Part shown: in pieces, positions 2,779 through 64,000 of the stretch | Numbering within the stretch: the first letter of the stretch is position 1 | Layout of the letters: each line of letters starts with the position of its first letter | DNA from: Phlegmacium glaucopus | Lineage: Eukaryota > Basidiomycota > Agaricomycetes > Agaricales > Cortinariaceae | Reading direction: 5' to 3' | Length of the DNA: 64,000 bases | Assembly (NCBI GenBank): GCA_015039465.1 | Contig: MU130477.1 | Span: 1,015,218 to 1,079,217, forward strand | Translations under genes and position numbers: made by a program | Notes under the pieces: model-generated | Seen by the model: the letters and a program-made list of their open reading frames with translations, nothing else | Told to the model about the DNA's origin: nothing | Database searches by the model: none

Positions 2779-5700
2779 TTACCATCCGGAATAATGATAA
2801 TCATTAGCCCAACTGCGATTTCTTGCCATTGCCATCTGCTTCCTCTGTTCTCTCTCATTCTGATCATACACGGCAGGAACGGCACCAGTAGCAATAGCGC
2901 CTCCACTTGCCCGCCTCTCCTTAACACCACCACTGCTTCCTTGATTGGGTTTCACAGACGATCCCGACTCCGAATTAGGCATAGTCCCCTTCGGATGCAA
3001 CTGTACCATATTCGGTGGAGTCGTTAACGGCTGTAAACCCCCAAGGAGTGAATGTCGACTCCCACCCCCACTAGCCGTCCTCCTAGCGGCTAGATTGACT
3101 TTGCTTAGTTGACGTTCCCATAAGAGATTCCGACGGAGACTTTCGGGGAGTTCAGTGGACAACATAAGTCTGCGGGTGGTGCGCGGAGTAGATGGAGGCG
3201 CAGGTGGTGGGAGGTTGTAGGGGTGGCCGACCGGGATGGGAGTTGTGTGATTTGAAGTGGTACCGTTCATCTGGTTGAAATGAAGGCTATTGAGGGAACG
3301 ACGGTTCACGTTGTGATTAGGGACCTGATGTTGATGATATTGATCTTGTGAACGAGTCCGAGTAGGTTGTCGAGGCTGCGAAACCTTGGCCCAATGCGGT
3401 ACATCGTCCTCGTCACCCAGCTGCTTTCTCTGATTGGTACCAGTGGCCGCAGCAGCATCAGTAGTCGTGGTTGATTGATGACCATGAGTAAGAACAATCC
3501 CCCTCCTCTCCGCCAATGCCTTCAATTTCTCCTGCGCGACACTCTTCGACACCTGAATACCACCACCAGACTCTGGCTCACTCCCGCTCTCGTCTTCCAA
3601 CTCTTGATCTTGAGGCGGTCCTTTGGGCCTGTATCCACCCGAAGAATGACCACTATTGAAAGTCATCTTCATGTTCAAGCCATTGACAGTCTGATGCCCG
3701 CCTCCAGCAGCCTTAGACGTATTAGCGCTCACACTCCCAACTAGGACTTGAGAAGACAAGGGTATAGCAGCCGTGCTCTTGGTCATTTGCATACTGAGAG
3801 TGCGAGCTGGAGGCGACAATGCAGCCACAGCTCGGGAATGGCTCAATGCACCACCACCAGTCGACGACGACTTGCGATGCGTAGCTTCATCAGGACGTGA
3901 TGACAACGGAACCGGTTTGTCATCTTGAGTATTATCCATTCTCGTCGCCTGCACATCAATCGATGGCGCCAACGGCTTAACTTGCCCATCCCGAACTCCG
4001 CTCGCACTTCCACCACCACCCACACCTCTAATCTCACTGGAACTATAACCCCTCCTATACGGATGCCCAACCGGGAAGATCTCTGGATCCGGATTCATCA
4101 ACTGCGTCAATAAACCCACACTGCTCGTCCTAGCTATTTGCGTCAAATTCTGGAAACTCTCGGCTGGTTTTTTGGCGAACAATTCGCGTTGGCGTTGAGC
4201 TTCGTGGGCGGCTTGGGTCACGTTGACTGGAGGCTGAGGGGGATGCCGATGGCCACGAGAGGGTAGATTGCGTTGCATACGGTTGGCAGGATGATTATAG
4301 TTAGGAATACGGTTGGCATTGGAGAGTTGGTTATTTGAATTCGTGCGTTGCGCAGGGGGTGGTCGTTGTGCTTGTTGAACCTGTTGTTGTTGTTGTTGTT
4401 GTTGTTGGAGCTGCCGTTGAAGTTGCTGCCGCTGATAATTTTGCTGCAGCAACTGTTCCCGCTCCTGCCTCTGCCGCTCCTCTCCTTTCATTTCCTATAA
4501 TTTTCGAGACGTCAGGTTCCATGCATATAAAGCGTAAAACGGAACGTGGAAAGGGGGAAAAGAAGAAAACCTACCTCATCATCTTCACTCCCCATCTCTT
4601 CGCTACTCCAACTCCCATCATCATCCGAATCCTCAAAATCACTTTCACTCGTTGTCAACACGATTGTTCTTTTATGCTGGCCAGGTAACAGAGGATCCGA
4701 AAGCGTGTGCTTCACTTTGGCAGCTAGCGCAGAGGAAACCAGGTTTATAGCCTCATGAGTCGAGTGCTTGGTGTTGATAGGGGCAAGTGGCGGCGGTGGC
4801 GGGCGTGCGTTGTTGTTACTACCTTTGCTAACTTTGGAAGTCGAACGAGCAGTATTCGGATTGGGATTGGGATCAGAGCGTTCCCCTCCTTCCTTGCCTG
4901 TCACCTCCTTATGAAGTTGACGCTCGACCACCCGCTGTTGAGGAGGCGGAGGATGAGCCGGATGATGAAGAACCGGCATATGCTGTTGCTGCCGCTGTTG
5001 ATGTTGCAAATGCTGTTGTTGCAGAGGATGTGGATGACGAAGATCTTGCTGCTGGTGCTGTTCCTGCTGCTTCATTTCTTGATTCAAAACACCACCAACC
5101 TGCTCCTTGCCTTTACCCTTCGCAATGGAGTTAACAACGGGTTGAACCACCAACCCATCAATGCCAGAAACTTCTGACCCACTCTTCGGATTCGAACCAA
5201 CGCCACTGCCTTCATCTGAGTTAGACCCAATATTAAACCTAACAGGTCGTTTCGAAGAGACACTAAGTAGTCCATTGGTTCCTCCCTGCATCTCTTGCTG
5301 CTGTTGTTCAAGATGATGGCGTTGACGCTGCCTACGAATCTCCGCCTCATGAGCATCCGCATCTTGACGAGCCAGCTGAACAGCCAAAGCCCTTTGTTCA
5401 TCCTCCATCCTCTCTTTCATCTCCTGCAGTTGTTGTTGTTGGATCAATGACTGTTGACGACGCTGCATTTGAATCATCCGCTCTCTCCCTCTCTCCCTCT
5501 CTTTCTCCTCTTTCTCCTTGTCATTATCACCACCATTTTGCTCTGCATCTGCACCATCACCTCCAGGCTCGGCTCCGGAACTTTCTCTCCTGGTCATCGC
5601 CAATACACCCCCACTCACAATTTTCCCACTACCACTAACCCTACCCTTCGACCCAGGACGACCCAACATGAACTTTGGACGCTGTTTAGGTTTGGTAGAA

Positions 5701-8534
5701 ATGGAGATGACGGGTTTCTTCCTTTCCCCACGAGTAACTCCGGTGGCAGCAGTCATCCCCAATAACCCTCCCCCAATTCCATAATTTTCACGACTCCGGC
5801 TACGGCTTGCACTACTGTTGGTTCTCGCTGTCCCAACGCCGACACCAACGCCACTCCTTCCACTCAGACTCCCACTCCGACTACTACTTCGTCCGCTACT
5901 GGCACGTCGGTCCATAGGGGGTGCTGGTGGCACAATACTTCTTTGTTTCTGATTTGTCGATGATGAAGACGTTGATTGATGGAGAACTGGTGGCGGTGAA
6001 AGTGGAGATATCGGAGATCTGAGAGAACTCCTCTTCACAGGTTTTGTTTTTGCTTTGCTCTTGGTCTTGGTCCCCATCCCTTTCTTCTTCCTCATCGTTG
6101 TGGAGGCGCCGGGTGCGATGGTAGGGGTAGTAGGACTCGTCAAACGAGTCGAAGATCTTTGTGCTCTCCCATCTCCCAGCCCCTCATTCTCCACGTTAGA
6201 ATCCTCATCAGAAGTAAAGACAACACTTTCACCCTCCCATTCCCCACCTTTCTTAACCGACATAGACTGAATAGTCGATAAGGAACCCAATCTCATAGAT
6301 GTGTAATCCCCCACCATATCCGGCTTCAACATCGGTTGCGTATCGACATCGAGATCAACCTCCCCAGGTGATCCGACGACGAGACCGTCATCTATCCACC
6401 TATCTTCATCCATTACTTTCCTCGGCTCTTCCACCTCGCACCCTTCATATGCTTCATCAAGTAAAGCACTTGTAGCAGCGGTAGCTGTGCTAACAGCTGT
6501 AGAAGAAGTTGAATCCGTGTTGCTAGTAGTTGTCGTCGTAGAAGAGATAGAATGCCTATTGGAATTCGTGCTGGCAGATATCTCCAGATCCTGGACTAAT
6601 GACTCAGTGGACGCCTGATGATGCTGAACACTAAATGGTTGTGGTGGCAAGACTGCCGACAACGAAGCCGAAGACGAAACGTCGGTGGCGGAGTTAGCCT
6701 CGACTGAATCCAAATCCTCCGATCGTGATCGATCTCGAGTCTGGTCTAAGTATTGTATTTGAGTAGGATGATGTTTAGGAGGTAACATCAACCAGTCTCC
6801 TTTCCTAAATATACCAGAGCTCGAGGTAGCCAAGAGAGGAGAAGTAGGCGGTGTCGGATGAGGTGTTAGATTCGGTGTAGGGTTGACGACTATCAGTCTT
6901 GGTGGCAGTTGGGGGTTCGATAACCCAAATATATGCGCATCTCCAAGCATCGGCGGCGACGGCGACGATGTTGAAACGGAAAGCGAGGGTGCTAAACCCA
7001 CACCTACATCCAATCGCATCGTGTCCGACAGCTGGACTTCTCCAGGATGCGCAAGCGCATATGAATCGGATAAAGAAGGGGAAGGAGGAGTTGTATGTAG
7101 AGATGTATATCTCGTCATCGAGCTTGGCAAACTGGGGATTGTCGTCGTCGTCGTGGTCGTTGTACTCGTTGAAGAAATGATAGTAGCGTGGGTAGGGATG
7201 CCAACATTCTTAGTAGCAGATGTTGGTGTCAAAACGGGAGGCTGTAAAAAACTAGACACTGCCGCTGGTATAGAATCCACTGTTGTCAACGTCCGTGTCG
7301 TCGAAGTAGTCGTCGACGAACGGCCAGCCCATTGCAACCCAAAGTTCAATTCTTTCACCAATCTGGACCCGTCGCTTCCATTAGATGCCAAACCGGGCAA
7401 CATATCACAAATGATCCTGCCTACACATACCGGAGGAGATACGCTGCCCCCAGTATGCATTCGCGCCTGCAACCCGCTAGGCCTTCTTTGCTTCGCACGG
7501 ACGTATTGTGGAGTAATTTCGGCAAAATCATGCTGTGAAGAAGACACTGACAGCGAAAATTGTTGCACCGGTACCCTCGGGGACAATACTGCGTCTGACT
7601 TTGACATTTGCATTGAGGCGGAGGCTGAATCCGAAGGTGGGTATGGGGCTGAACCTGCTGGGGATATTGAGTGGAACGTGGCGTGTGGTGTCAGACCAAC
7701 GCTAGAAGAGGGGAAAGTCGGAGAAGAAGCTGTTTAGAAAGAGGAGGGCGTTAGTAAAGCGGTTGGAAGAAAAATAGGTAAAAAAGTCATGAGGAAAAGT
7801 CAAAAAGAAAAAGGAAAAGCAGGATGACGAGTATAAAAGGACGAGGGTATTAGGAAGCCAAAGATAATACGCAGAAGAAACGTTCGTCTGTGCTGTGTTA
7901 CGCGAAGGTCGCTATGGGGCTAATGCTAACCATTCGGTGACCAGAATGGCAAAAGAATCCGAATTCGGACGCGAACAGCATAGAACGAAACGATTGGAAA
8001 GTTCGAATTCCAATCCGACAGACAAGAAAGACAAGGACGGAACGCCACTAACTTGCATGATCATGATCCTGGGGTAACACAGTAGTAGCCGATATCAGTG
8101 ATGGCTGATAGCTCGAAGTTGAATCGTTAGCGTCCTGAATAGCATAAGGAGGCGGAGGCATAGACTCCGATTCCGATTGCGTTGAACAGCGATGTGAATT
8201 GGCTGGGGTATGCTTCTCCTGCAGGCTAAGAACGTTCTCTTGGTCCTGTTCCAGTTGCTCAATCTCCTTCTCTTGATACAGTCGATTGCTTAAGTCGTCT
8301 CGCATCATGTCGCGATACCATAATCTCCAGGAGATATTCTCCAATCTCCGTCCGTCTTGCAAAGATTCTTTGCATTTCGTAAACACTTGGGGGAGGCGCA
8401 TATAAGCCTACGGATAATGATACGAAGGGAGAAAACCTACAATTCCAAAGACCTGATAGTGCATCTCTACCTTCAAGATCCCTGACTGCATCGGCAGTGA
8501 TAGAGAGGACGGGTGTCGGGAAAGCTGTCAACAT
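2779..8534 (-). CDS. GATA-like (DUF1752) / DUF3295 fungal regulator, four exons
   Basis: Exons on the minus strand are 8534-8441, 8385-8053, 7729-4575 and 4494-2779. All junctions are GT..AG and the spliced length is 5298 nt, giving 1765 residues. The N-terminus spans exons 1-2 and carries the signature ITADAVRDLEGRDALSGLWN, then FTKCKESLQDGRRLENISWR. This is the AreA GATA-like domain (PF08550/DUF1752); its Trp-rich core is rebuilt exactly by splicing the 55-bp first intron. The long middle is Ser/Thr-rich with Gln-rich and charged coiled stretches. The C-terminus, with ESLRRNLLWERQ and the final RNRSWANDYHYSGW, matches the DUF3295 tail. Proteins of this layout are fungal regulators of unknown biochemical function, presumably nuclear. 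The start is the ATG just before the conserved block. The 323-bp second intron is long for this genome and may hide a small exon. Confidence 0.9.
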
Positions 8535-11500
8535 GGCCCCGACCTTAATGATGGTGGTGGTCTAGAAGAGAAGTAAAAAAACAAATTTCTTCGATTTGAA
8601 TGGATGGCTATAGCCACCTGTTGTCGTGTAGAACAGCGGTCACTGAGGGTTGGATGGGGGATGGTGAGATTAAGAATATTTTTTTTAAAAACAAATCGAA
8701 AGCAAACGAACCGAACAGACTTCGGGCCGAGCTGAACAAATATGAGTACACAAAAAAGGTCAGCTGAGCTGTCCACGTTGAGGCCTTAGGTAAACTCTCA
8801 TGAGTGTAGTCCGCAGCCCACTAGCACCTGACCCTTGTGCATGCACCTTGCTCTTCAGCGCTCTTCCATGTCGAGCCTATAACTTATTACCTTAATTAAG
8901 TTGGACTTCCCCTATGTATGGGGAAGCGCTAGCTCTTCCTGTCTACACCTCCCGTCCTTCCATAATTGATATAAACGTAAGTACGTCAACAAACAATTTC
9001 TGATGTTAAAAAATTCGGGGTGGTACTCGATTCTAATCGATCACCGGTAACAAACTTCCATCGAGTCTCCTTGCGATGGGACCACGAGTCCAAACTATAG
9101 AGTCGGTGTTACTCTTTTTTTCCAAGGACTCGGGAGATTAAGAATCATGATAGGGTCACGAGTCGAGCAATTTTTTTTGAATTCTAATTACTGGCTCATG
9201 GCCGGTGATCACAATGCAAACACCTCCGAGGAAGGCTTACTTACTCCAGGTCCACTTGACATCGCCCATAGATCAAGCTCGACCCTCGCTCTCGAACCCA
9301 AAACCCTCTCTCATATATTCCTCCGCCGAGTCGGGAGGGTGAGCAGGTTTGTAAAATAAACGGAGTTACTACTCAGAGTCACCTAAAAACCCGAACGTCT
9401 TTCACATGTCGACCTTGTCTAAGGGTTCTCTCTCTCCCTATGGCTACACGTTTTATCTAAATATTCTCAGCGGAATGGAGGTACTGGGTACTCCATTTTC
9501 CTTTTCTTTCTATTCCCCCGTTCTTGACAGTAGCACACATTATTCTTCTTCTGGTTATCTCGGCTTCACCATCGATTTTCCCGATTTCTATATCGACCCA
9601 CACTGGCACATGATCTCGATCATTGTAAGCTTACAATCATCTATCTATCCTCCCGAGCCATGATCATCTTGATAACAAAGATCATGTGTATAACTTGTAC
9701 TGCTTCGGTGGTGATGAGTACCAGTAATCGGTGACCGAATCATGTATTAATCGGTTGTGGCTTTCATTTTCAATGTTCAAGCTGAACTTAACAAAGCTTA
9801 GAGAATGAGCTGAACTTAGTTGCTGTTTTGAGGTGTTTTGTTCCATTGGTTCAACGTATGCGCTCTCCCTCTCTTCCGCTCTTCCCGCTCGCTATCGATA
9901 TCAATAGCATGATTCATTTTTGCCCTGCCCGAGGCCGAGCCCGTGACAAAATCTATACAAGATATTAACCCGCACCTCGTTCGAGAGTTCAAAACTACTA
10001 GGTTCTGATGAATGTCCTGAATCATATAATCCCTGTTTCCAAACAACAACGTTCGTTCTAGATTTAGGTATCCGTCTGTCAACACGAGACCTAGACTACA
10101 AAATCGACTCGAAAAAATACCCATCTGGGGACGCCACTGTCCTGTCTTCCGGAGTTTCAACCTCAACGCCTTGTTGCTGGTCGTCCGAGATGTCGGGGAG
10201 AAACACTCGCTGGGTCACTTTTTCTCGAAACTGGATGAGTTTATTCCCACCTTGGTTAGGCTTCAGGAGATTTCGTTCTTCCGGAACACTTATGGACCGA
10301 ATGGGCCATCAAGACCTCACGGCACTTACATTCAAATGGCCGAATCGAGGGTTTTTCTTCAACAACCGACTAACGCTAAGCCTGATTTGAGGACGATATT
10401 TATAGGGAGTCAAATGGTTCATGACCGCAAGCGTATTCACGCAGTGCAAGCTCGTCCGTCCGCTATCGACGTCGACACCAATCACTATCAAGCTTAAATC
10501 GAGCCTGCGCTAACTTTACCATTCTGTCATCGCACATAGCCTTACTACTATTAACATTTCTGTTCCTTCTCTTCCCTGTCTCGAAGTCTCCGACCTTGTC
10601 GCTTTCACCTCTGGCTTGCTACTATTGCTCCTGTGTTGTCATCATTTAAACTCCAATTAGTTCACCGGGAGGTCTAAGGAACATTTCTGGCATGTGTTTT
10701 CGATATTAAAGTTCCCAGTTCACACGATTCTTGTTTAACTCGTTAACGTTTCAAGGGAGTTCCCACTATTTTCCTTAACTTATCATTTTCTTACTTTTAG
10801 TACAGAGACCTGATGCAAGACTCGATTTATTGGACGTCAAGTTCGAACTAGCGCGCAGTAGCATCATCCTTTCCAAAAACAACAAAAAGGGTACTAGCGC
10901 TAGGGTACTGTCGGAAACTAGCTGGTCAATAATATTCCTTCACGAGAGGCCTTCTACGGTTTCTTCCGACCTTCATTGGTTCAGTTAACGTTCAAGTTAT
11001 ATATGATTCGGTATGTACACATATACAAACTTTGTGTCAACCTATAAAAAAGATTTGTAACCGACGAATCGCGGTTGACCTTCATAGCTGGGTGAGATTC
11101 TCTTCCAAATATAATATGAGCTGTCGAAATTTGACTGATCAAATTTCACAGGTAGGGCTTATTCGCCCACACTAGTACATCTTATTGATACCTTGATATA
11201 GGTAAGTACTAAACGTCGAACCAAGAGCATGGATAGTCACTCGGACCTATATAATGATAGGCATACTATGTAGTAGCCTGTAGAATCATTTGTATTCGAG
11301 AACCATTTTGTCCATTCAAGTTTTATATTGACTATTTCTCCGACGACCCCGCTGTTTCAACTACTACATAATCATCACAAAAATAAAATGAGGTCCCAGT
11401 TTGAATGGGAATAAAACTTGCAACTGTCAAGGGGATCGATCACGAGGATAATATGTTGTTGTACGTTTGGTTCAATAAGTATTGGTTACAATCTCAAGAA

Positions 11501-14264: not shown

Positions 14265-14512
14265 TTACGAGCTTTTGCATTTGTTAAAAGGGGTGCTTCA
14301 CCTCATGTGTCGATATTACTTATGATTGCACAGCAGAGTGAAGTTACATGACATGTTGTACTTTGACTATGGCTAGTAATACCCCGACTAACTGAAGGTA
14401 GCGCGAGGTGTACCTGTTCAACTGACTCTGCTCGATGGAGTACGAGGGGTACCAGCACACAGATAAACTTAGGTACTAATGACTACCATCTTCATACTGG
14501 GCTGCTGAGTAT
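14265..14512. repeat. Repeat R1, copy A (3' flank of the locus A deaminase)
   Basis: Nearly the whole segment recurs in the same orientation at 23069-23315, with scattered substitutions and short indels, from the ggggtgcttcacctcatg region to gggctgctgagtat. It is the downstream flank of the deaminase gene and marks one edge of the A/B segmental duplication. Confidence 0.85.
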
Positions 14513-14556
14513 ATTGACAGAACAATGAGGACGATGTATACGATAAGCCAAACTAC

Positions 14557-16083
14557 CTACGCTATGTTGTTCATATCTCTGTATTCACTCCACTCGTCTT
14601 CTTCTGACGACTCGGGGTCGTCAATTTGATAAGGACTCTCCCTCGATCCCGTGCTGCTGTCTGAACCGCCGCTATGTATCCTGCGATGCCCATACATCGT
14701 AGCCATATTGGATATTGCAACCTTCAATGCAACGCGAATGATATCGGCAACGACGTCTCCCGGTTCTCCAGGAGGAATTAGCCATGCTTCATGTGCCTTG
14801 CCAGAAGTCCCAGACAACACATAAGGCTTCTTACCATCAACCATCCTGCATTTGTTGATTTCTTTGACGTAGATATCGCACGCCCAGCACATGAGCTTGC
14901 TTACACCGATCAGGTTCATGTGTGCCGTGATATTGTGTTGATCCAAATAACTAATTATCTGTAACTCACAATGAAGGAAGGGGGTAATCGTGGGGGGGTT
15001 GCCTTCTTTAGGCTTTGGCCAAAGCGCCCCGAGGTTCGTCATGAAACTCTGCTGCTTGATTTGACTCGTTTCCTCAAATCCGAACTCTTCCAACAATCTC
15101 TTGAAATGATCCACAGGACAATCATTGAGAAAATATTTCCTACCGTGGTTCTCCGGAAGCGTGCCAGGGACAGCACCAACCCACACGACCGTGAAACAAT
15201 CGCCACCCTCTGTCAACTCATTATTCCCCAATACTTTTTTAATCCACTTGGTTCCAGAAGTGGCTACGGAACCTGCGTCTATCCAATAACGCGCAACGCG
15301 CCATAAGCGCCGTCTGAGCTTCCGCAACCAGATATATTCGTCTGCATCGAAAGGGTTAACGCCCTGAGCGTCAATGGGTACGACACGGCTAAAGAAATCG
15401 CTGAAGACTAATTGCATCGCAATCTGACAAGAGGCCCAGGCCCGTGTGCGGATCGTCGGGGGGTCAAGATCCGCCTGAGGCTTAATAGATTTGACGAAGT
15501 ATTCAAAGAGGGCCTTGAGTGCATTGGCGCCCTCTCCCTCTCCTCCCGACTCATAAGTGGTAAGCTTCAGAGTCGATCGAACGAAATGGATAAATTTCTG
15601 ATTCCCCTCTACACCTCCGGCCTTGGCCCATTTGGTCACCAACGTTTCGAACATCTCGATTAGAAGTCCTACTGGGATGGGGCCGTCATTGCGTGAGCGA
15701 AACCGTATATCTTTGATCATGTCGATCTTGTGGAAGAACCTGCGGTATGTGATGGATATGGCCGAATCGAAGAGTAACCTCTGGGCAGTCTTGGGTTTGG
15801 GCTCGTGAAAGGCTTGGCGAAGAGTCGAAATCAATTTGTTTCCGTTCTGTATGTCCTCATCCTGAGGTCGACCACGATTCGCAGCGAGATAAAGTGTGAT
15901 TTTATGATCTTCAACAGAGAGCGCAGATGCGACGCAGTCGCCTTTGGGATCCCTGACAAAAAACGAAGCGATCCAGTTCAGGATGTATAGCATCTGCCGC
16001 TCGTTTGAGGTTGTCGTTGGAGGATCGGGAAATGGGAGTGGGGAGATCCTCCATTTGAGTTGGATGAAGGCTAGGGCGGTCAT
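14557..16083 (-). CDS. OTT_1508-like fungal deaminase family protein
   Basis: An uninterrupted frame of 508 residues. The C-terminal third has the zinc-binding pattern of the cytidine-deaminase superfamily as seen in fungal OTT_1508-like proteins: His371-Cys-Glu373 (family usually H-A-E) and, after GVSKLMCW, Cys399-x-x-Cys402, with a conserved-looking His430 further on. The N-terminal half is helical and typical of the family, without another known domain. The substrate is unknown for this family; a nucleotide or nucleic-acid base is inferred from the fold only. The HCE in place of HAE is a mild oddity. A full-length paralogue of identical length is hidden in the mirrored block at 27534-29060, and a broken 5' copy lies at 31237-31895. 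The start at 16083 is supported because all three copies share that ATG and upstream sequence. Confidence 0.85.
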   Translation of the reverse strand: MTALAFIQLKWRISPLPFPDPPTTTSNERQMLYILNWIASFFVRDPKGDCVASALSVEDHKITLYLAANRGRPQDEDIQNGNKLISTLRQAFHEPKPKTAQRLLFDSAISITYRRFFHKIDMIKDIRFRSRNDGPIPVGLLIEMFETLVTKWAKAGGVEGNQKFIHFVRSTLKLTTYESGGEGEGANALKALFEYFVKSIKPQADLDPPTIRTRAWASCQIAMQLVFSDFFSRVVPIDAQGVNPFDADEYIWLRKLRRRLWRVARYWIDAGSVATSGTKWIKKVLGNNELTEGGDCFTVVWVGAVPGTLPENHGRKYFLNDCPVDHFKRLLEEFGFEETSQIKQQSFMTNLGALWPKPKEGNPPTITPFLHCELQIISYLDQHNITAHMNLIGVSKLMCWACDIYVKEINKCRMVDGKKPYVLSGTSGKAHEAWLIPPGEPGDVVADIIRVALKVAISNMATMYGHRRIHSGGSDSSTGSRESPYQIDDPESSEEDEWSEYRDMNNIA

Positions 16084-16340
16084 GATTTCGAGTTGAACAT
16101 CCTGGTCAAACTCAGGTTGTGTTATGTTCTAAGAAATATATGCAGTCGTTAGTCAAACTGACATTTTGGATCCACATCGTGCTCACTTCTGTTGACATAT
16201 TGCGGTATGGCGGGGCGTGTGTTGAAGTGCTGGTAAGGTAGGCGACATCTAGTCTTGCATGTAGTCGCAGCCACTAAAACCAAATTGATCATGTGTTGAT
16301 TTCCACGTCCAAGGCGTCTTTAATCAATGCCTCTTTCCTC
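16084..16340. promoter_or_regulatory. Upstream region of the deaminase, shared with loci B and C
   Basis: This spacer lies between the deaminase start (-) and the remnant kinase (+). The part next to the deaminase (16084 to about 16215) is conserved in mirrored locus B. The longer part to about 16330 is conserved, inverted, in locus C (31237-31456). The outer piece, around a gatca(t/c)gtgtt motif, also recurs near 49775-49830. The conservation fits a duplicated promoter, but no specific element is identified. Confidence 0.5.
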
Positions 16341-18944: not shown

Positions 18945-19965
18945 ACCTTCGTCTGGTTGTGGGTCATTTATGATTTATTAGATTCAATGTTTTTATTATG
19001 GGTACCAGTTGTCGAATACTATGTATGATCCTCATGGGGGCTTCTTCATGAAGCTTCCCACATCCCAAATTGCTGTCAACTTTTCGAGCATACAATACCT
19101 TTCAATTTTATGCTTTTGGTTATGGTACTCAAGTTCCAGTGAGTCGATTTGGCTCAACGAGGAGGGTTTTGCTCTTCGTACTTCTGCATCAGTTCCGCCA
19201 TTTGACTGGTTGAACATATGGTGTTGAAGAAAGGAATGAGGTCTTTCGTTTCTGTTCACCTTCTGGAATTGCGTTATGTCGAAATGTCACCAAAGATCAC
19301 CTCCGATACGACCGACATGATTATTCTGTAGAAGCTTTAATGATTCTGAAACTCTTACCAGATCGGATCGATGTCGTCGCTTTCATGATGTGTGGCCCAT
19401 TTTACATCTCGATATGGTGTGTTCGTTGAGAACATATCGAATGAGTCGCGTTGACAAGCACCATAGGCGTGGCGGTACCATATCAGGTACCATCCATGCT
19501 TGATTTGTGCTTGAAAAAAGTGGGAAACAACTCTGCTCAATCAAATGGAACATTTCGTTTCGTCAGTATTGAGGTTTTTATTCTCACGTAATATGCTGTT
19601 TTCATAAGATATAGAGAAAGCTTGATAAATAAACTCACTGAACGTAACTTTATATAACTAGTGTCAACATCTCATCCACTCTTTCATCTATTGTTCCCAA
19701 TAGTTTAGATTTTTGGTTCCAGGATTTCGCGTCTGACACATTTGGCTGCCCATTTTCATCGACTATAGTAGCTTTCCTCTTGCGAGAATCAGATATGGGG
19801 TTCGCTGCAGAATTGTGGGGTGATAATAGGGTGGGTGTTATGCCAGACTGGATGGAGAAGGTGAGATGCTGTTTACTTGGTGAAACAGGCGTGAATGGCA
19901 CTGTGTATTAAGAGGCGCGGGAAAGGGAAAAGAACAAAATTAACAATGTCGGAGGATGATGACGA
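18945..19965. other. Intergenic, no gene recognised
   Basis: A minus-strand frame of 83 codons at 19650-19901 contains a basic SRKRKATIVDENGQP-like stretch, but it has no family I recognise. It could be a C-terminal exon relic of an unknown gene. Nothing else stands out. Confidence 0.4.
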
Positions 19966-20530
19966 TCATTGATCATGCAAGGAGGCAGTTATAGGAAAAG
20001 TAGGTGAATACGATGATGGTGTTGTATTTGACCAGGATAAAGAGATCGATGAGCAACTGGTGGAGGATATTGGTAAGGATAATTGATATGGCTGATGATG
20101 ACGATGTGTTTGTCGGGCAAGCGGCCCCCTCAGATTCATGCCGATGAAACTCCAGAGCTCCATCCTTGATAAGTATGCTGGGTTGCCAGTTGCTAATGAC
20201 CATAGCTCCCGACGTCGGCTACCGCCTGATCAGCTGAGTTCACTTCGGGACAGTGAGGCGATGTCGGTAAAATACGATAAGCATCTAAAGGGAGAGAGGT
20301 TGTAGATAATATTACATAACTGCATCGTAGTGTCTATAAGAACGTAAGAGACAACTATAAGTAAGAAGAGAGAGCAATAAAGTTAAAGAGGAATTATTTA
20401 CCAGACATCGGTATGCCTTTTCTCTTCTGCTTGTATTTGGACTAATGCTCGGACTTCTTTGACAATTCTTCACCTTGCTAAAGATCCACCAGACATCCCC
20501 AGAGTAGACCCATCCAGCGTCGCACTATGC
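19966..20530 (-). pseudogene. Decayed copy of the Sfp1-like C2H2 zinc-finger gene
   Basis: Matches the mirrored gene at 25288-26936 when that block is read in reverse. Shared coding patches on the minus strand include LARQTHRHHQPYQ, the C-terminus ending HDQ, and a TLDG..L..SGGS stretch near 20500. An internal deletion between about 20270 and 20290 removes the region that encodes the second half of zinc finger 2 (SYLNPNGLKYH in the sister copy). Frames are shifted elsewhere, and the N-terminal part with finger 1 is missing because similarity ends near 20550. It is non-functional as a zinc-finger protein. This fragment made the mirror relation visible. Confidence 0.8.
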
Positions 20531-23068: not shown

Positions 23069-23315
23069 TATATTACGGGCTTCTGCATTGGTTAAAGGGG
23101 TGCTTCACCTCATGCGTCGATATTATGATTGCACAGCAGAGTGAAGTTACATGACATGTTGTACTCCGACTATGGCTAGTAATGCCCTGACTAACTGAAG
23201 GTAGTGCAAGGTGTACCTGCTCAACTGACTCTGCTCGATGGAGTACGAGGGGTACCAGCACACAGATAAACTTAGGTACTAATGACTACCATCTTCATAC
23301 TGGGCTGCTGAGTAT
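23069..23315. repeat. Repeat R1, copy B
   Basis: Same orientation and nearly the same sequence as 14265-14512. It ends with gctgctgagtat at 23315. In locus A the next bases are attgacagaac; here they are caaaaatg. The expected continuation is found written backwards starting at 29104, so 23315/23316 is an exact breakpoint. Confidence 0.9.
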
Positions 23316-25287
23316 CAAAAATGTTTTTTTTTAGAACACTACGGTTTATAGATGGCATACAAAAAAAAGAACCCGGTGAGACCGGACCCGAGTTTCGACT
23401 AAAGTTGAACGGAACTAGAGGAGCCCTAGGACCTCGCGATTCAAGATTCTTAGATTCATCGTCTTATCTGTCAGCGATGATAATCATAGAGTAAGTTAAC
23501 AGGGAAATCCAAGTCAGTCTACTAGGAACCAAATGCAAGAAAAATTACCTCATACTACGATCTCCAGGGCCAGGCGAGATTCATATATACATGGATGTTA
23601 ACCACGTTGATGTATGTGTTGAGGTTTACATGATCTCCGCCACAAAGGTCAAAGCCGCAGTCTTTGTAGTAAAGTTATTTAAGTTAACATACCGAACCAT
23701 CCCCACTTCTTAGACCGTAGGACTTGGTCCCCATTGTCGTGTTGACGGTCTTGCGAGTTGCAAGATGAACCATCGCGGGGAACTCGACAAAAAGAACTAA
23801 AAGTACAAGAGTTTGACTAGATTAAACGTAGTACTATATGGTTAACCCAAATCGTAACTCCAAAACGCAAATATCGTATTTGAAGGTTTAATCTAAATCA
23901 GTGACTCCACCAAGCCTGGCTAGTACGCCTGTACTAGGTAAGAGAACAGCTGCAAAAAGCTCAGGACAGTACGTATACGGTTTTACGGTTAGCGCTTTTA
24001 AACTTGCAACTTAGCAAGTTCATGCAATACACAGTTTTTTAACAGCTCATACATATACATACATACATGAAATTTTATCATTCATATTGAAAACCAAGGA
24101 TGCTGCGATCATGTTTTATTGTCACTCCGGAATTATGATCGGGAATGAATGAGGTCATTCATAAACGACCCATTTTCAAAGGGGTATGTATTAATCGTGG
24201 CAATCTGTTATTCAAATTGCAATAGATAGAGAAGCCGGACGTCGCCGGACAAAGTGAAAGTCATAATGAGGTCACCGTTGGACACCGAGATTCATCTTTA
24301 TAAAATAAGGAGAAAGATGCTTAGTAGACACAGAATGGATAAAATATTCAAGTGCAACTCAGGATAAAAACTAAACCCGGGATGTGGCTTACCGACGCGT
24401 ACCGTTCTTTATGCGTAAGATACTAGTATATCCGTCTCTCATTGACTGTATACGTACAACAAAAGATATTCACGACAAGGTAAAGCTCAGCTGCCCCTCC
24501 AACATCTACTACTAGTCAAAACTAGTTACTAAGGTTTTGTAGAGAATAGCTGCTAAATGGATGAGAATCTGACGGAGCACAATTACAACCATAAGTACAG
24601 GCGACATGAAGGACGACTTGAGATGTAAAAACTCCCTGTCGCTTAGATTCAGGTATGATGGTTTTCCTCGTTAAACTTAAAGTATAAAAAAGGTGTAGCG
24701 CGGTTGGGAGTTGACAGAAAGTTCGAGGCAAAGGGACTCATATCTATCGTACCACTTGTTCATCAGCGGTAGGGATGCTGACTGACTTTTCTTCTCCTAG
24801 AGGCGACGTGGGAGGGTTGTTTAAAGAAAGGTTTGATGGAAGGCAAGTGCGCTTAGAGCAGAAATCTTTCCGGGAAAAAATGAAACGGTGGTTAGTGTCC
24901 CGAACTTCGACGGTATGTGCCTCTTGGGGCAACACTGTTATGGAGTGGAGCCATTCAGCACACGTGCTTAAACTGGTGAAAGTCTCGAAACTTCTCTGAA
25001 GAAGTTAAAAGATTGAAGGAAGGCTCAATAGGTAGACGGTAGACTAGGAATGAAAATGAGAAAAGATATACTACCGTTGGGCGAACAGAGTGGGGGAGGA
25101 AAATGCTAAATAACTAGGAAAAAAGATTGCTGAACCAAACACTTCTGAACTTTCGGACTGGAGGGAGGGAGGGAGGGAGAGAGCTAAGGAATGTCAATTA
25201 TAATAATAGTTACCGATGATGTAAGCTAGCTGGTGTACAAGTTGTTCTTAGTTGCACTCAGGGACCAAATTACTATTGGGTAGCTAT

Positions 25288-26936
25288 TACAGGCAAAGAC
25301 TAGTCCCACTTGGGGGGTAAAAGGTCAGAAGTGTAGAAGTTTTCATGGAGCGCAAATGTTACGCAATAGGGGTGAAGGAGAGATCTTCGTAGAAGGAGTG
25401 AACAAAGCAGCTGATGAGGCCACTAACTGTACCTACGGGCGTTGAGTTGAGGACTTGGTGGTCATCATCGCGGTGGGGGTAGTGGTTGTCTGGGATTAGT
25501 CTCATTGTAACTAGTATATTGTAGGAATCTTGCAAGTAACCATACACAGGTCGTAGCATTAGACTAAAGTTCGGAAGCAATAGATTGTTTGGTCACAAAT
25601 CACGAGTCTAAAGCAAACGACACCACGAGTAGAAGGTCTAGAAGTACGCGACAACCTTGTAAAGCTTCTTCTAGTATAATACCACGACCGTGGATTGCCA
25701 TTTGCACAGATGGGTGGTCTTCCAGATGCTCGTCATGGCAATGTGGGAGATGGATGATGAAGGAACGAGTGATGCGGGAGCAGTAGGGCGAGAAGGAGTC
25801 AAAATAGTAGAGGTTTAAGTAGAAGTACAGGTGAGAGAGGAAGTAGCGGACCGGGAAGCAGCGGTAGGCTAGAGGGGTGCGCGGAGGTACCGTGGAAACC
25901 CTCTTCTTTTAGCTCGTAGCAGCATCGTGGGCAGATGTGAGGTAAGTGGGGGTCAGAGGGGCATCTGGGTCGTATAGGAATAGGTCTAAGTTGTCTTTAG
26001 CTATACGGCGACATGCTAAAAAGAGTTCTAAAAATAGGATGAATAAGACAAGTTGAAGGCCGAAGGTTAAAGCTGCTACTCCTACTCCTACTTCTATACA
26101 ACCTACGATGATTGCGACGACTAGTAGGCTGCTCAGGATAAGGCTGTATACAGATACCAGGACTATTTTCAGTAGGATAACGAGTTTAGGGGTTTTGACA
26201 CGCATCGCGCTGCAACCTACCCGAATTTCCATGAGACTCCCACAGACCACCTAGAAGTAGCTTTTTGTCGTTCCACTTCTTTGGAGTTTGTTTAGGCTCG
26301 TAATCAGGTTTATGGTCTTCTTCTCTTTTCCGTATAGCTACAGGCCATTGATTTAGGAGATAATGAGAAAAAAAAAAGAATGAATACCAAAAACAGGAGA
26401 ATGCAAGGAATATCTGCGGTGCTACGTGGTTTCATTCAAGTATAATAGAATGTTGGAGGAGAGAGGGAAAAATCTAACGATTAGTACTAAAGTATGTTTT
26501 CAGCATGGAGTTGGGGTTACCTAATTTTATGGTAAATCTCTTTCCTTGCACGTTCTAACTTTGACTTCTGCTTAGGCTTCAGCCGCTCCTCAGGTGCTTG
26601 GACGATGGTCGACGCGGTTAATGGTGCAGTAGTGGCCGGAGCTACGGCTGTAGCGGAGTAGCAGGGCTTCACGTCCGCCATTGGCTTCAGCCCTCGATAC
26701 TAGTAGTCGTTGGCCGTTGAGTCGTATAAATAGTTCTACCTCCTCAAGTAGCCGTGCTTAGACTCCTCAGCGACCGGGCTGTTTGTGTAGCAGTAGTAGT
26801 CGTCGGTATAGTTATAGGAATGGTTATAGGACGTTGTTGTCGACCACGAGTAGCTAGAGAAATAGGACCAGTTAATGGTTGTGGCGGTAGCATAAGCGGA
26901 TGCTAAGGATATTGACAAAGGAGCGTACTAGTTACT
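25288..26936. CDS. Sfp1-like two-finger C2H2 transcription factor (readable only after un-mirroring)
   Basis: Coding is read by complementing each base of the given strand from left to right, which is the minus strand of the corrected sequence. Finger 1 follows an intron that starts GTATGT after SLERSL and reads CSDFVCCGAHLPDLH, then LLEHFEEDH. Finger 2 is assembled from three exons, AYRCP, TPRCTK and SYLNPNGLKYHLEKGTC, across introns GTAACT..TATAG and GTAAGT..AAAAG. The tail is His/Gln/Pro-rich and ends HDQ with a stop at 26934-26936. Split finger, spacing and LLEHFEE.H are features of fungal Sfp1-type regulators, which control growth-related genes in yeasts. No stop interrupts it. The start is unsettled: candidate ATGs map to 25288-25290 (needs one more intron) or 25430-25432. 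The sister copy at 19966-20530 is broken. Confidence 0.8.
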
Positions 26937-27533
26937 AGCAGGAGGCTGCACACAATTAAAACAAAAAAAGGGGGAAAGACTACTATGTTTTTGTTTTCTG
27001 AATTTTCCCGGAAGCTAGGAAAATATATGAACTTTGGAAGGAGTGTAGGCGATGGAAGGGGTCATTTGGCCGATGGCCAAGAAGATAAATTGTTTTTTTT
27101 TCATAATTTACGTGTGTGGGGGAGGGGCGAAAAAACTGGAACGGGAAGGAACGAAAAAAGGAAGCAAAGAGAAGGGTTTTTTTAAAAAAAAAAATCATAG
27201 AGCCGTAGCTGAATAGGGCATTACTCAATTGGGAGCATTTTTGTTTCATACCCACCCCCCCGAAAAAAAAGCACGCGGAGAAGAGGGGGTAATCTAAGCT
27301 AAGTAACGTGATATATTATAACAAAAAAAAGAGTAACAAACTGTTTGTTTTAGTTTAATGGAACGACAATACATTTGTTCCGGAGACGAGAGCAGTCTTA
27401 CTCGGTGGTATAGCGTTATACAGCTGGTTTCACTCGTGCTACACATAGGGTTTACGGTCAAACTGACTGCTAACGTATATATATAATCTTGTATGTTGTT
27501 GGAGTCGGACTAGTCCTACAAGTTGAGCTTTAG

Positions 27534-29060
27534 TACTAGCGGGATCGGGAGTAGGTTGAGTTAGCCTTCTGGAGGGTTGAGGGTCAAGGGCTAGGGGGTT
27601 GTTGTTGAAGTCTGCTCGTCGTTTACGATATGTAGGACTTAACCTACAGAAACAAAAAACAGTCCCTAAGATTTCCGCTGACGCAGCGTAGACGCGAGAG
27701 ACAACTTCTAGTATTTTAGTGTGAAATAGAACGACGCTTAGCACCAGCTGGAGTCCTACTCCTGTATGTCTTGCCTTTGTTTAACTAAAGCTGAGAAGCG
27801 GTTCGGAAAGTGCTCGGGTTTGGGTTCCGACGGGTCTCCAATGAGAAGCTAAGCCGGTATAGGTAGTGTATGGCGTCCGAGAAAGTGTTCTAGCTGTACT
27901 AATTTCTATATGCTAAAGCGAGTGCGTTACTGCCGGGGTAGGGTCATCCTGAAGGTTAGCTTTACAAGCTTTGCAACCACTGGTTTACCCGGTTCCGGCC
28001 TCCACATCTCCCCTTAGTCTTTAAATAGGTAAAGCAAGCTAGCTGAGACTTCGAATGGTGAATACTCAGCCCTCCTCTCCCTCTCCCGCGGTTACGTGAG
28101 TTCCGGGAGAAACTTATGAAGCAGTTTAGATAATTCGGAGTCCGCCTAGAACTGGGGGGCTGCTAGGCGTGTGCCCGGACCCGGAGAACAGTCTAACGCT
28201 ACGTTAATCAGAAGTCGCTAAAGAAATCGGCACAGCATGGGTAACTGCGAGTCCCGCAATTGGGAAAGCTACGTCTGCTTATATAGACCAACGCCTTCGA
28301 GTCTGCCGCGAATACCGCGCAACGCGCAATAACCTATCTGCGTCCAAGGCATCGGTGAAGACCTTGGTTCACCTAATTTTTTCATAACCCCTTATTACTC
28401 AACTGTCTCCCACCGCTAACGGAGTGCCAGCACACCCAACCACGACAGGGACCGTGCGAAGGCCTCTTGGTGCCATCCTTTATAAAAGAGTTACTAACAG
28501 GACACCTAGTAAAGTTCTCTAACAACCTTCTCAAGCCTAAACTCCTTTGCTCACTTTAGTTCGTCGTCTCAAAGTACTGCTTGGAGCCCCGCGAAACCGG
28601 TTTGGGATTTCTTCCGTTGTGGGGGTGCTAATGGGGGAAGGAAGTAACGCTCAATGTCTATTAATCAATAAACCTAGTTGTGTTATAGTGCCATGTGTAC
28701 TTGGACTAGCCACATTCGTTCGAGTACACGACCCGCACGCTATGGATGCAGTTTCTTTAGTTGTTTGCGTCCTACCAGCTGCCATTCTTCGGAATACACA
28801 ACAGACCCTGAAGACCGTTCCGCGTACTTCGTACCGATTAAGGAGGACCTCTTGGCCCTCTGCAGCAACGGCTATAGTAAGCGCAACGTAACTTCCAACG
28901 TTATAGGTTATACCGATGCTACATACCCGTGGCGTCCTATGTATCGCCGCCAAGTCTGTCGTCGTGCCCTAGCTCCCTCTCAGGAATAGTTTAACTGCTG
29001 GGGCTCAGCAGTCTTCTTCTGTTCACCTCACTTAAGTCTCTATACTTGCTGTATCGCATC
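27534..29060. CDS. Full-length deaminase paralogue (readable only after un-mirroring)
   Basis: Complementing the given strand from left to right gives an ATG at 27534-27536 and a stop at 29058-29060: 1527 nt, 508 residues, identical in length to the gene at 14557-16083. I translated the first 190 or so codons without meeting a stop. They align residue by residue with the locus A protein (for example FVRD.KGDCVASALSVEDHK and the LYLAANRGRPQDEDIQNG stretch) with scattered substitutions mostly near the N-terminus. The 3' end reads M-N-D-I-A-stop against M-N-N-I-A-stop in A. Codon-level conservation over the whole length shows this is a genuine gene whose text has been reversed. Neither strand as given can be translated into it. 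Confidence 0.88.
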
Positions 29061-29104
29061 CATCAAACCGAGTAGCATATGTAGCAGGAGTAACAAGACA
29101 GTTA

Positions 29105-29309
29105 NNNNNNNNNNNNNNNNNNNNNNNNNNNNNNNNNNNNNNNNNNNNNNNNNNNNNNNNNNNNNNNNNNNNNNNNNNNNNNNNNNNNNNNNNNNNNNNN
29201 NNNNNNNNNNNNNNNNNNNNNNNNNNNNNNNNNNNNNNNNNNNNNNNNNNNNNNNNNNNNNNNNNNNNNNNNNNNNNNNNNNNNNNNNNNNNNNNNNNNN
29301 NNNNNNNNN
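29105..29309. other. Assembly gap (205 N)
   Basis: A run of 205 undetermined bases directly follows the mirrored block. The piece to its right also appears mirrored. The two mirrored pieces on either side of a residual gap look like the two ends of an incompletely closed scaffold gap. Confidence 1.
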
Positions 29310-29690
29310 AACGTCTAAACTTATCTAAAGCGTGGGATGTTTTCCAACTGTTCATGAGTAAGTTCGAGAGTTTCTTCGTTCCGTCTTTAAGACTGTTATT
29401 GTCACTAATCCCACGATAATCTATGGTTAAGTTTGCTTCGACGGACAGATAACATCGATAACGAAAAACCACAACAGATCTATGGAATATACAACAAAGG
29501 ACGTAGGGACGGAGCAGACACCGCTAAAACTGTTTAAAACCGCTTTTTATCCGATCTATGACTCTAGGCCTGTTTTAAAACCTTAAAACTCCTCCGGTCC
29601 GCGTTAGGCCTGTTTTTCTGCATTGGAGACAGGCCTGCTTTCCATGGAAAGGCCCTTGTCCGGAGCGGATGGTAACGGGCCCCAGGAGGA
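29310..29690. other. Second mirrored piece, right of the gap
   Basis: Complementing without reversing turns 29551-29565 into ggctagatactgaga, which occurs at 29945-29959, and turns 29667-29687 into the 21 bases found at 30081-30101. Both matches lie in the same order within one repeat. Normal inverted or direct repeats cannot give this relation. The left edge is the gap. The right edge lies between 29687 and about 29860. Confidence 0.75.
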
Positions 29691-31236: not shown

Positions 31237-31895
31237 GACGCGTTGAACGTGGGAAGCAACACGTGATCAGTTTGGGTACCAACATCATCATGCAGACTAG
31301 ATGTCGCCTACCAGCACTTCAACAGACGCCAAGCCGCCATACCGCAATATGTCGACGGGAGTGAGCACGATGTAGATGCCAAAATGTTAGTTTGACTGAC
31401 GATTAGCATGCATTTTATTAGAACCTGAGTTTCATCAGGATGATCAACTCGAAATCATGACCGCTCTAGCCCTCATCCAACTCAAATGGAGGATCTCACT
31501 ACTCCCAGTTTGGGACCCTCCAACAATAACTTCAGAGCGGCGGTCGCTATACATCCTGAATTGGATCGCTTCGTTTTTTGTCAGGGATCCCAAAGGCGAC
31601 TGCATCACATCTGCGCTCTCTGTTGAAGATCGTAAAATCACGCTTTACATTGCTGCGAATCGTGGTTGACCTCAGGATGAGGACGTAGAGAACGGAAACA
31701 AATTGATTTCGGCTTTTCGCCAAGCCTATCACGACCCCCCAGACCGCTCAAACGTTACTCTTCAATTCGGCTATATCCATCACATACCGCAGGTTCTTCC
31801 ACAACCTCGACATGATCAAAGATATACAGTTTCCCTCACTCAATGATGACCTCACCCCAGCGGTACTTCCAGTCGAAGTGTTCGAAAGGTTGGTG
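31237..31895 (+). pseudogene. Truncated deaminase copy (locus C)
   Basis: Inverted relative to locus A and similar to it from the upstream region (31237-31456, matching 16330-16084) into the first ~120 codons. The frame starts with the same ATG at 31457 and keeps FVRDPKGDC and the ALSVED.KITLY stretch. It then meets TGA at 31667-31669 where loci A and B have CGA (the NRGRPQDED segment), followed by a frameshift near 31725. Similarity ends near 31895, so the zinc-binding domain is absent. It cannot encode a deaminase. Confidence 0.88.
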
Positions 31896-32407
31896 AAGGC
31901 TATCGCTCGTTTTTTTTTCCACCATTAAAACTTTCAAGTCTGCATGCAGTATACGGGTTAAACTCCCTGAAGTGTGATTGTGTCCACGAAGATACGACCG
32001 TAATACTAAGAGGAGTTCTAGCAGCACGCTTCCTGCCGCCCTTGTCTTCCATGTTCTTTGCTCACCTGCGACTCCTCAGGCTCCAGAGTCCATACATATG
32101 ACGGAAAGCTTGGCTCTCGGGGTCAGCCATCATGACAGATTAGTGGTTTTTAGAGAACGGGCGACAAAATTGGACCACCTCACTAGTTACGACATTGCCG
32201 CACCAGTACAGACTTTGCAAAAAAGCAAGTGTCAAGAATTCGATTAACAGCACTCTCATCTCCGCAATTCTCCATCGTCTTCTACGAAAGCGAGGGAGAA
32301 TTTCTTGGTTTTTGCATTCAAGCCTTTTTACTCACAGCACTCGATCTTCCCAGGCACGATGAATGTAAATTTCGCCTTGACTTTGTATCGCAGGTAATGG
32401 TGTACTC

Positions 32408-61572: not shown

Positions 61573-62606
61573 ATGAACTCCAACAACAAAGCTGGCCCCT
61601 CCCTGCCTCCTGCTTCGCAACAAGCTCGGCTCGAAGAAGCACGGGAACGTTGACGGAAGGAACGGGAGGAGGAGGAGAAGCGGGAAGAAGCTGAGATTGA
61701 GGAGGCTCGGAGGCTGGAGGAGGAGGAGGAGAGACAGAGGGTAGAAGCGGAGAGACAGAGGGTAGAGGCGGAGAAACGGAGAGTAGAGGCGGAGAAGAGG
61801 AAGAATGAGGAGTTGCAACGGAGGCAGCAGGAGGAGGAGCAGAGGAAGAGAAAGGCGGCAATCGCGGTTGACGACGACGATGATGAAGAAGAAGAAGAAG
61901 GAAACGGAATGGAGCCGGGGCCGAGTGCCCCGAAAAAGAGAAAAACAAATGAAAAAGTAAGTGGTTCAAAAACAGAAACGGAATAAAACTAACGGAAAGC
62001 ACATAGGAGGTCTATCAGACCAAGACGAAGAAAAACCCGGCGTGCAGCCGGTGTGACGACGCACACGAGGTGTGCTACGAAAAGAGCAGTGGGCCAGGGT
62101 GCTGGCGCTGCTACCAACGGAAGATCGCGTGCAGCTTGGTCGGAGGGAAACGGAAGACAAAGGAGCGGACGGAGGAACGGAGCGGAAAGGTGGATAAGGG
62201 GAAAAAGAAGGAGACAGCGCCAGAGGTGGACGGGACGGAGTTGATGATAGAGGGGCTGGAGATGATTGGGGGACTGTTGAGGAAAATGGTGGAGACCCAG
62301 GAGGGTATAAAATACGCGATGGAAGTACGGATGAGGAGGGAGATAGAAAGGGAGAAAAGGGAGATAGAAAAGGATAGACGGAAAGAAGAGAGGATAGAAG
62401 AGGAGAGAAAACGGAGAGACGCGACAAAAGCAGAGAAGGGTGTGGAGATGGAGGTGCAAGAGGAGACGGAGGACGAGGAATCGGATGACGGGGACGAGTC
62501 GGAGGTGGAAGGAGGGTTGGGAGCGGAGACAGAGAGGACGGACGGAGGGAAGGACGGAGGAGTGGAGACGGAAGGGATGGAAGGAGTAGAAAAAACAGTA
62601 GAGTAG
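61573..62606 (+). pseudogene. Coiled-coil Arg/Glu/Lys-rich protein with Cys cluster; one nonsense codon
   Basis: Exon 1 (61573 to about 61957) encodes a highly charged coiled coil and an acidic stretch before KKRKTNEK. A GTAAGT..CATAG intron leads to exon 2 (62007-62606) with CSRCDDAHEVC, then GCWRCYQRKIACS, a cysteine arrangement resembling a zinc cluster, and another charged coiled coil. This layout is widespread in mushroom genomes, often near retroelements, with no known function. The frame from ATG is interrupted by TGA at 61651-61653 (AREhR-TGA-RKER context, where CGA/Arg is expected); everything after it is open. Either this allele is dead or translation begins downstream. Confidence 0.6.
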
Positions 62607-62749
62607 AAAATAAATTGTATATAATTTTTTCTTGTTATTTTTTTTTTTTGTTTTGTTTATAAAAAATTGTTTTCTTGAACTTTGTTTTGTGAAACAGAAG
62701 AGTAAGATAACGGAAAGGAATAGAACGGAAAAGACATGGAAAGGCACGG
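62607..62749. other. 3' flank with T-rich tract
   Basis: An AT-rich segment with a long run of T at 62636-62650, probably the 3' region of the preceding gene and the junction with an opposed similar sequence. Confidence 0.35.
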
Positions 62750-63260
62750 AAAAAGCAAGGAAAGAGAGACCAGCCTCCCTTTGCCTTCTGCTTCCTCGCC
62801 TCTGCCTCCTTGCCTCACCTTCCCACCTATTCCCCTTTTTCTTCCTCCATCGCGGTCTCCACCTGCCCTGCCTCAACTATTATCTCCCCGACCTCTACTA
62901 ACCCCCCGACAACTCCTTTTACCACCTCTGGGTCCTCCCATATTTTATGCGCTACCTTCATGCCTACTCCTCCCTCTATCTTTCCCTCTTTTCCCTCTAT
63001 CTTTTCCTATCTGCCTTTCTTCTCTCCTATCTTCTCCTCTCTTTTGCCTCTCTGCGCTGTTTTCGCCTCTTCCCACACCTCTGCCTCCACGTTCTCCTCT
63101 GCCTCCTGCTCCTTAGCCTACTGCCCCTGCTCAGCCTCCACCTTCCTCCCAACCCTCGCCTCTGGTGGGCTTTCCACTGCCTGTTTGTCTTGCACAGTTG
63201 GTCTGGGACCTTGTTCTGTAGGCTTCGCTGACGTTCCTCGTCTTTTTTTTGATCTCAAGT
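62750..63260 (-). pseudogene. Antisense relic of a similar charged coiled-coil protein
   Basis: The minus strand is purine-rich and encodes, with several stops, Arg/Glu/Gly-rich text plus a RTRSQTN-like start. It resembles the composition and organisation of the gene at 61573-62606 in opposite orientation. The plus-strand Pro/Ser/Leu-rich frames here are shadows of this purine-rich strand. Confidence 0.4.
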
Positions 63261-64000
63261 GAAGATGTTTATCGCCTTAAGAGTATGTTGTTATGAGGCT
63301 CACGGTGATAGGCCACATAGAGGCAAGAAATGTTTTTTATCCGATGTTAGGCCTTGATACGTGATAGTTTGTCTTCTCATTCTGGAGTAGAATAGGGCTT
63401 TAGTTTTCTTGCCTTTTCTGTACCTTTCCTTGATGTTTTTCTTGAGTTTTTTCGATAGGAATGAAGGGTCCTTGTTATGGTTGCAAGGCGCCTGTTCGCA
63501 GCCTAAGGAGGAGGCCTGAAGTTCCAACCTCTAGCTCGGAAACAGTTTCGTGTTAAGAAGGCATGCTGGTCTGGAAGTTTCTTTGAGAGGCTCTTCATAG
63601 AACCAGGCATACTCTAGTAACGAGTCCGTCCAGGAGACAGGACCTGGGAAGCAGAAGGGCTGTTGTACGCACGGTAGGTAGGGCAGAAGGTACAAAGGTA
63701 CGATCTCGGGAGGCAAGGCTTGTGATAAGGCCTTGCGTAAGTTGGAGGCGGAGGAGGCCAGCAGTAACTGCCTCTCGTCCTTAAACTCCAGAGGCTTTAA
63801 AACCTGAGATTTAACCTATTGTCTGCTGCACATACGTTTGAAGACATGGATCAGTTCACCAGACCGATACTTCCATGGCTGTTTCTTTGAAGGACCAATG
63901 GTCGATTACTTGATCCTGTGCGCAGGCTTGAACAACGACTAAAGGTGGTCTCGATAGGCCGATTTGGGCCTGGAGAAGGCGAGAGAACTAAGGAAAAGGC
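63261..64000 (-). other. Open minus-strand relic reaching toward the window edge
   Basis: Minus-strand frame pieces at 63716-63531 (PPEIVPLYLLPYLPCVQQPFC) and 63527-63300 follow each other in one frame with one stop between, and protein-like text continues upstream to about 63830. No family is recognised. It may be part of a retroelement or a gene extending beyond the window. Confidence 0.3.

Follow-up and report, generated by a model that had tools for sequence, protein, structure and literature searches.

A 5.8-kb block in a Phlegmacium glaucopus contig is written backwards without complementing and hides two genes

We examined a 64,000-nucleotide stretch (the window) of contig MU130477.1 (C164) from the agaric Phlegmacium glaucopus, in which positions 23316-29104 (block 1) are written in reversed order and uncomplemented. 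Block 1, read backwards, joins its left flank at an exact junction, and this reading restores a deaminase-like gene and an SFP1-like zinc-finger gene. The error recurs beyond the single block described in the first-pass annotation, which a model had made from the letters of the window; further backward text, including 62768-64000 in the same window, lies at other places in the assembly, in several cases directly beside runs of N. The backward text is a data artefact of the assembly and no biological novelty. Judged from the sequence, block 1 is in all likelihood a gap-filling artefact, in which a one-sided gap extension would have been inserted reversed and uncomplemented.

Reversal of block 1 and its match to locus A

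The features compared are as follows.

23073..23315, + strand: normal left flank (R1), 93.5% identity to 14265-14512
23316..29104, strand not applicable: block 1, 5,789 bases reversed without complement, N gap at its end
29105..29309: N gap adjoining block 1, 205 bases
14265..14512, + strand: locus A copy of the left flank
14513..16210, + strand: locus A, the normally written paralogue of block 1
31237..31896, + strand (coding strand +): normally written third copy of the deaminase-like region, in inverted orientation to locus A, with a stop in one matched stretch

Block 1 was compared with locus A in four readings: as given, reverse complement, reversed and complement. Locus A was matched by the reversed reading alone; a comparison of the entire window, reversed, with the window itself also bears out that plain reversal restores the homology. 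Reversed positions 1-1698 align to 14513-16210 with 96.3% identity over 1,698 bp (E printed as 0.0). Shorter pieces at 80-93% identity continue collinearly as far as 20479; they include reversed positions 2133-2432 on 19925-20228 (84%), 2433-2459 on 20241-20267, and 2614-2837 on 20270-20479 (80%). The first-pass annotation had described a collinear copy of locus A from 14513 to about 20535. This holds up to 20479 and not to 20535, and reversed positions 2838-5789 (text 23316-26267, about 3 kb) have no counterpart in locus A. The reverse complement of block 1, the reading expected to match after a true DNA inversion, gave no match to locus A. The complement reading aligned with 31332-31896 in the inverted third copy at 82.8% identity; this is the reversed relation viewed from the other strand.

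The junction is exact to the base. GCTGCTGAGTAT is followed directly by ATTGACAGAAC at 14512 and 14513 in locus A, and likewise at 23315 and 29104 when block 1 is read backwards; all 28 letters compared after 14512 equal those after 23315 in the backward reading from 29104. Flank homology and the exact junction together show that block 1 occupies its proper place between its left flank and the N gap but runs backwards. The limits 23316-29104, the reversal without complementing and the joining of R1 to the reversed text as in locus A had thus been called correctly to the base in the first-pass annotation, and the alignment of the reversed string to locus A that it had proposed as a check succeeded. 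The gap at 29105-29309 is the single N gap inside the window; the next starts at 64001, just beyond the window end.

Base composition flags block 1 independently of alignment. Under a strand-symmetric Markov model of order 4, for which 200 kb of the contig served as training text minus the neighbourhood of each segment tested, the given order was preferred by a mean log-likelihood ratio (LLR) of +18.9 per 1-kb segment. LLR was negative in 30 of 399 segments. Thirteen of these form one consecutive run covering block 1, two lie on block 3 (listed below), and the remaining 15 include one overlapping block 2 and one directly upstream of block 2. A two-state hidden Markov model (HMM), trained with the suspected blocks masked, called two segments, 23240-29610 and C164:1142659-1144213, the second of which extends into Ns. 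To the right of the gaps at 64001 and 92350 (window coordinates), the composition looks normal. Negative segments without an adjoining N gap were also seen at 10001-11500 and C164:962718-963717, neither of which the HMM calls.

Genes restored by reading block 1 backwards

Both genes announced in the first-pass annotation, a deaminase frame and a spliced zinc-finger gene, were recovered.

27534..29060: hidden deaminase-like gene in reversed text, 508 codons and a stop (reversed positions 45-1571)
14557..16083, - strand: locus A deaminase-like open reading frame (ORF), 508 amino acids (aa)
25430..26936: hidden SFP1-like zinc-finger gene in reversed text (exons written at 25430-25540, 25602-26345, 26415-26432 and 26502-26936)
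19925..20479, - strand: incomplete locus A copy of the zinc-finger region; stops interrupt the matched frame, through decay or introns

Reversed block 1 contains a 508-codon frame with zero internal stops, in which PF14441 (OTT_1508-like deaminase, Pfam) is found at 4.4e-12; the same family is found in locus A at 6e-12. The longest stop-to-stop frame of block 1 measures 116 aa in the given order versus 523 aa reversed. As a control, N-free windows of block 1 size were taken in 2.5-kb steps from 200 kb of the contig, block 1 excluded, and the given order had the longer frame in 63 of these 66. The locus A ORF equals BYT27DRAFT_7193163 (P0001, Phlegmacium glaucopus) apart from 14 aa missing in the latter's model, which starts 19 aa earlier. 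The frames of block 1 and locus A differ at 44 sites, 35 of them transitions, distributed 14/10/20 over the three codon positions.

The zinc-finger model built from reversed block 1 has four exons and three GT..AG introns (61, 69 and 69 nt) and encodes 435 aa. Scoring 7,991 candidates gave 152 homologues at E <= 0.001, of which 120 were listed. Those with names are largely fungal hypothetical proteins, many labelled C2H2-type domain-containing; one is named 'transcription factor SFP1' and one 'transcriptional regulator of ribosomal biogenesis proteins'. The label 'SFP1-like' derives from these names and not from a Pfam family. The C-terminal 264 residues of the model, a stretch spanning two splice junctions, are identical to the best homologue, BYT27DRAFT_6391443 (P0021) of Phlegmacium (Cortinarius) glaucopus. 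That homologue is recorded on another contig of 5,067 bp, which was not located in this copy of the genome.

Where tested, block 1 as given finds nothing, as the first-pass annotation had warned. Its DNA has a sole match in the 60.5-Mb genome, which is itself, and Pfam gave no family for any of the three frames tested among its seven given-order frames of at least 100 aa. Likewise, a six-frame comparison with the genome as given yields no identical match to the 508-aa protein of reversed block 1, locus A at 95% being the closest, and the zinc-finger protein finds short or weak relatives alone there (52-71%, the best being 71% over a short stretch).

Backward text at other gaps and on other contigs

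The 200 kb of C164 contain four N gaps, and three of them, including that of block 1, have backward text directly to their left. The other two blocks, and a repeat beside block 2, are listed here.

62768..64000, backward: block 2, up to the start of a 4,386-base N gap (64001-68386)
C164:1142943-1143713 (L032:2144-2914), backward: block 3, followed on its right by a gap of 1,500 N or more
62137..62530, + strand: normal text whose complement is repeated in the same order at 62769-63164 (97.2%)

Block 2, when reversed, encodes SH3_Tf2-1 and Chromo domains (Pfam), as in Gypsy-type elements. A 527-letter reversed piece of it matches at least 40 places (best 40 of 83 candidates scored). The flank ending at 62767 is present at 29 loci among the matches listed (three were split over two rows and merged), and the reversed text of block 2 follows it in 22 of them. 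The spacing between flank and reversed text equals the expected 63 letters, the number trimmed from the query, at 17 loci, is 62 or 65 at four and 87 at one. The gap-side junction of block 2 is supported by this spacing, and is exact in 17 of the 29 loci.

Reversed block 3 matches a copy on contig C78 (L035) with 99.2% identity over 771 bp, and the switch from normal to backward text is exact to the base. A 636-letter reversed piece yields at least 42 rows (best 40 of 59 candidates scored). The 217-aa frame of block 3 resembles a Copia RNase H. The C78 copy, Copia-like and otherwise normal, itself seems to hold about 200 backward bases (L035:223-421) beside its own N gap, according to matches of L034, L040 and L041.

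In its true order, block 2 would repeat its flank in inverted orientation at a distance of about 570 bases (62137-62744 and 62769-63429). This pair could be real paralogues or could come from hairpin long reads; contig C82 (L044) carries a similar pair of normal text and complement in the same order. Elsewhere in the window, short direct-repeat arrays lie at 52599-53069 and 54816-55259.

Searched in the given (backward) order, blocks 2 and 3 have matches on at least 18 other contigs of the same assembly: eight for block 3 (C123, C241, C105, C158, C116, C50, C14 and C206) and ten for block 2 (C144, C62, C191, C82, C228, C106, C92, C237, C138 and C226). These lower bounds were counted from rows inside the block part of the query, among the best 40 of 138 candidates for block 3 and the best 40 of 103 for block 2. 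Backward text was confirmed in all eight contigs examined (C123, C241, C105, C158, C116, C144, C62 and C82). In C123, C105 and C158 an N gap lies beside the block, and the switch in C123 is exact to the base (L032 and L033 against L035). In C116 (L041:1490-2115) a backward piece stands between two normal flanks with zero N, resembling a closed gap filled backwards.

Origin of the backward text

In the sequence of events that we propose, the scaffold would have had a gap to the right of 23315. Long reads would have extended the left contig end by about 5.8 kb, this extension would have been placed in the gap reversed but not complemented, and the unfilled remainder would have been left as 205 Ns; the same step would have acted likewise at other gaps. 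A reversed, uncomplemented fill at the open end of the left contig would produce the anatomy of blocks 1 to 3. The first-pass annotation had attributed the block to an error of assembly, of gap filling or of a file next to an N gap, which agrees with our results; the exact junctions, the restored genes, the composition signature and the recurrence at N gaps and on other contigs point to gap filling in particular, with long-read extension of the left contig end as the probable step.

An ordinary assembly inversion likewise leaves a wrongly oriented segment beside a gap, but such a segment is the reverse complement and is still found by similarity searches, whereas the text of block 1 is not. 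Mirror repeats, which can form H-DNA, share with block 1 the symmetry of reversal on one strand. They are local and short; unlike them, block 1 has its partner about 11 kb away, matches it over 1.7 kb of largely coding text and ends at an N gap. That a real biological inversion or a mirror repeat lies behind the block is extremely improbable: its reverse complement does not match locus A, several of the switches coincide with N gaps, and nothing speaks in favour. To our knowledge, no DNA process writes kilobases reversed without complement. Chance or low-complexity similarity, to which the partial purine-pyrimidine bias of block 2 might lend some colour, has a probability close to nil in view of the 1,698-bp match, the 508-codon frame and the splice sites.

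Several observations weigh against the gap-filling account. Composition and the HMM did not call block 2, which was identified from sequence matches and which also has a frame of 164 aa as given, versus 215 aa reversed. Composition is ambiguous to the right of the gap at 29105, where the LLR is -3.9 in 1 kb and +15.0 in 2 kb, and neither flank of the N gap at C164:1107567 shows a backward signal. Backward text stands on both sides of the gap in C158, so that a rule placing it left of the gap is incomplete. No N was found within the stretch examined in C241, C116, C144, C62 and C82; backward filling must then have affected some gaps that were closed, or else these five blocks extend past the stretch examined. 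At the protein level, Pfam returned no family for two pieces of the zinc-finger protein or for the 217-aa frame of block 3, and the codon differences between block 1 and locus A (16 synonymous, 27 non-synonymous) reveal little protein constraint.

Which program reversed the fill is a narrower question. We consider it somewhat probable that PBJelly is specifically at fault, its one-sided extension reversing the fill in one case without complementing it. A paper including this species describes, in the excerpted text, ALLPATHS-LG assembly followed by patching of hybrid assemblies with PacBio reads by PBJelly (PMC7550596); this genome would then be such a hybrid assembly and PBJelly the culprit. 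According to excerpts of two further papers, PBJelly extensions enter a gap without closing it (PMC9635638, PMC7757076), and one-sided extension is common, an example being a bird assembly with 2,597 single-extended gaps (PMC7757076). This mode of extending without spanning fits blocks that adjoin a leftover N gap, and the likeness lies in long-read sequence added to one side of a still-open gap. The fault that those excerpts describe is inflation and duplication, whereas in block 1 the fill is reversed without complement. Against PBJelly stand the several backward loci without an N gap nearby, and we found no report of a fill reversed without complement in the literature searched; the excerpts of PMC6733440, PMC9635638, PMC6191289, PMC7872254, PMC7757076 and PMC10166144 do not mention one.

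It is less probable, though still to be reckoned with, that some other step reversed certain fills, be it in a scaffolder, in a script, during format conversion or when the sequence copy analysed here was made. Contigs in this copy and the ones on record for the same proteins differ in size (1,241,598 versus 1,256,101 for P0001; 387,892 versus 389,873 for P0004), so that more than one assembly version seems to exist. Against this reading, the 20 homologues listed for locus A, drawn from the 7,994 scored candidates with the most shared words, do not include the deaminase protein of block 1, and the P0001 cluster holds a single member; this would be expected if the gene were hidden in the public version as well.

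A reversed conserved 16S motif had 0 matches in one genome each for 84,980 prokaryote species, which says nothing on eukaryotic assemblies; the forward motif matches E. coli rrsH once, indicating that it is sound for rrsH. Locus A DNA had no match among plasmids, an uninformative result.

In the text as given, the genes inside block 1 are invisible to similarity searches and gene finders. Such text can be detected cheaply in any assembly, by the k-mer likelihood of the reversed text or by searching with the plain reversal of gap flanks. The same silent fault may, as a tentative suggestion, be present in many published genomes patched with the same tool. If so, a sizeable amount of public eukaryotic sequence would be backward text counted as orphan or non-coding DNA.

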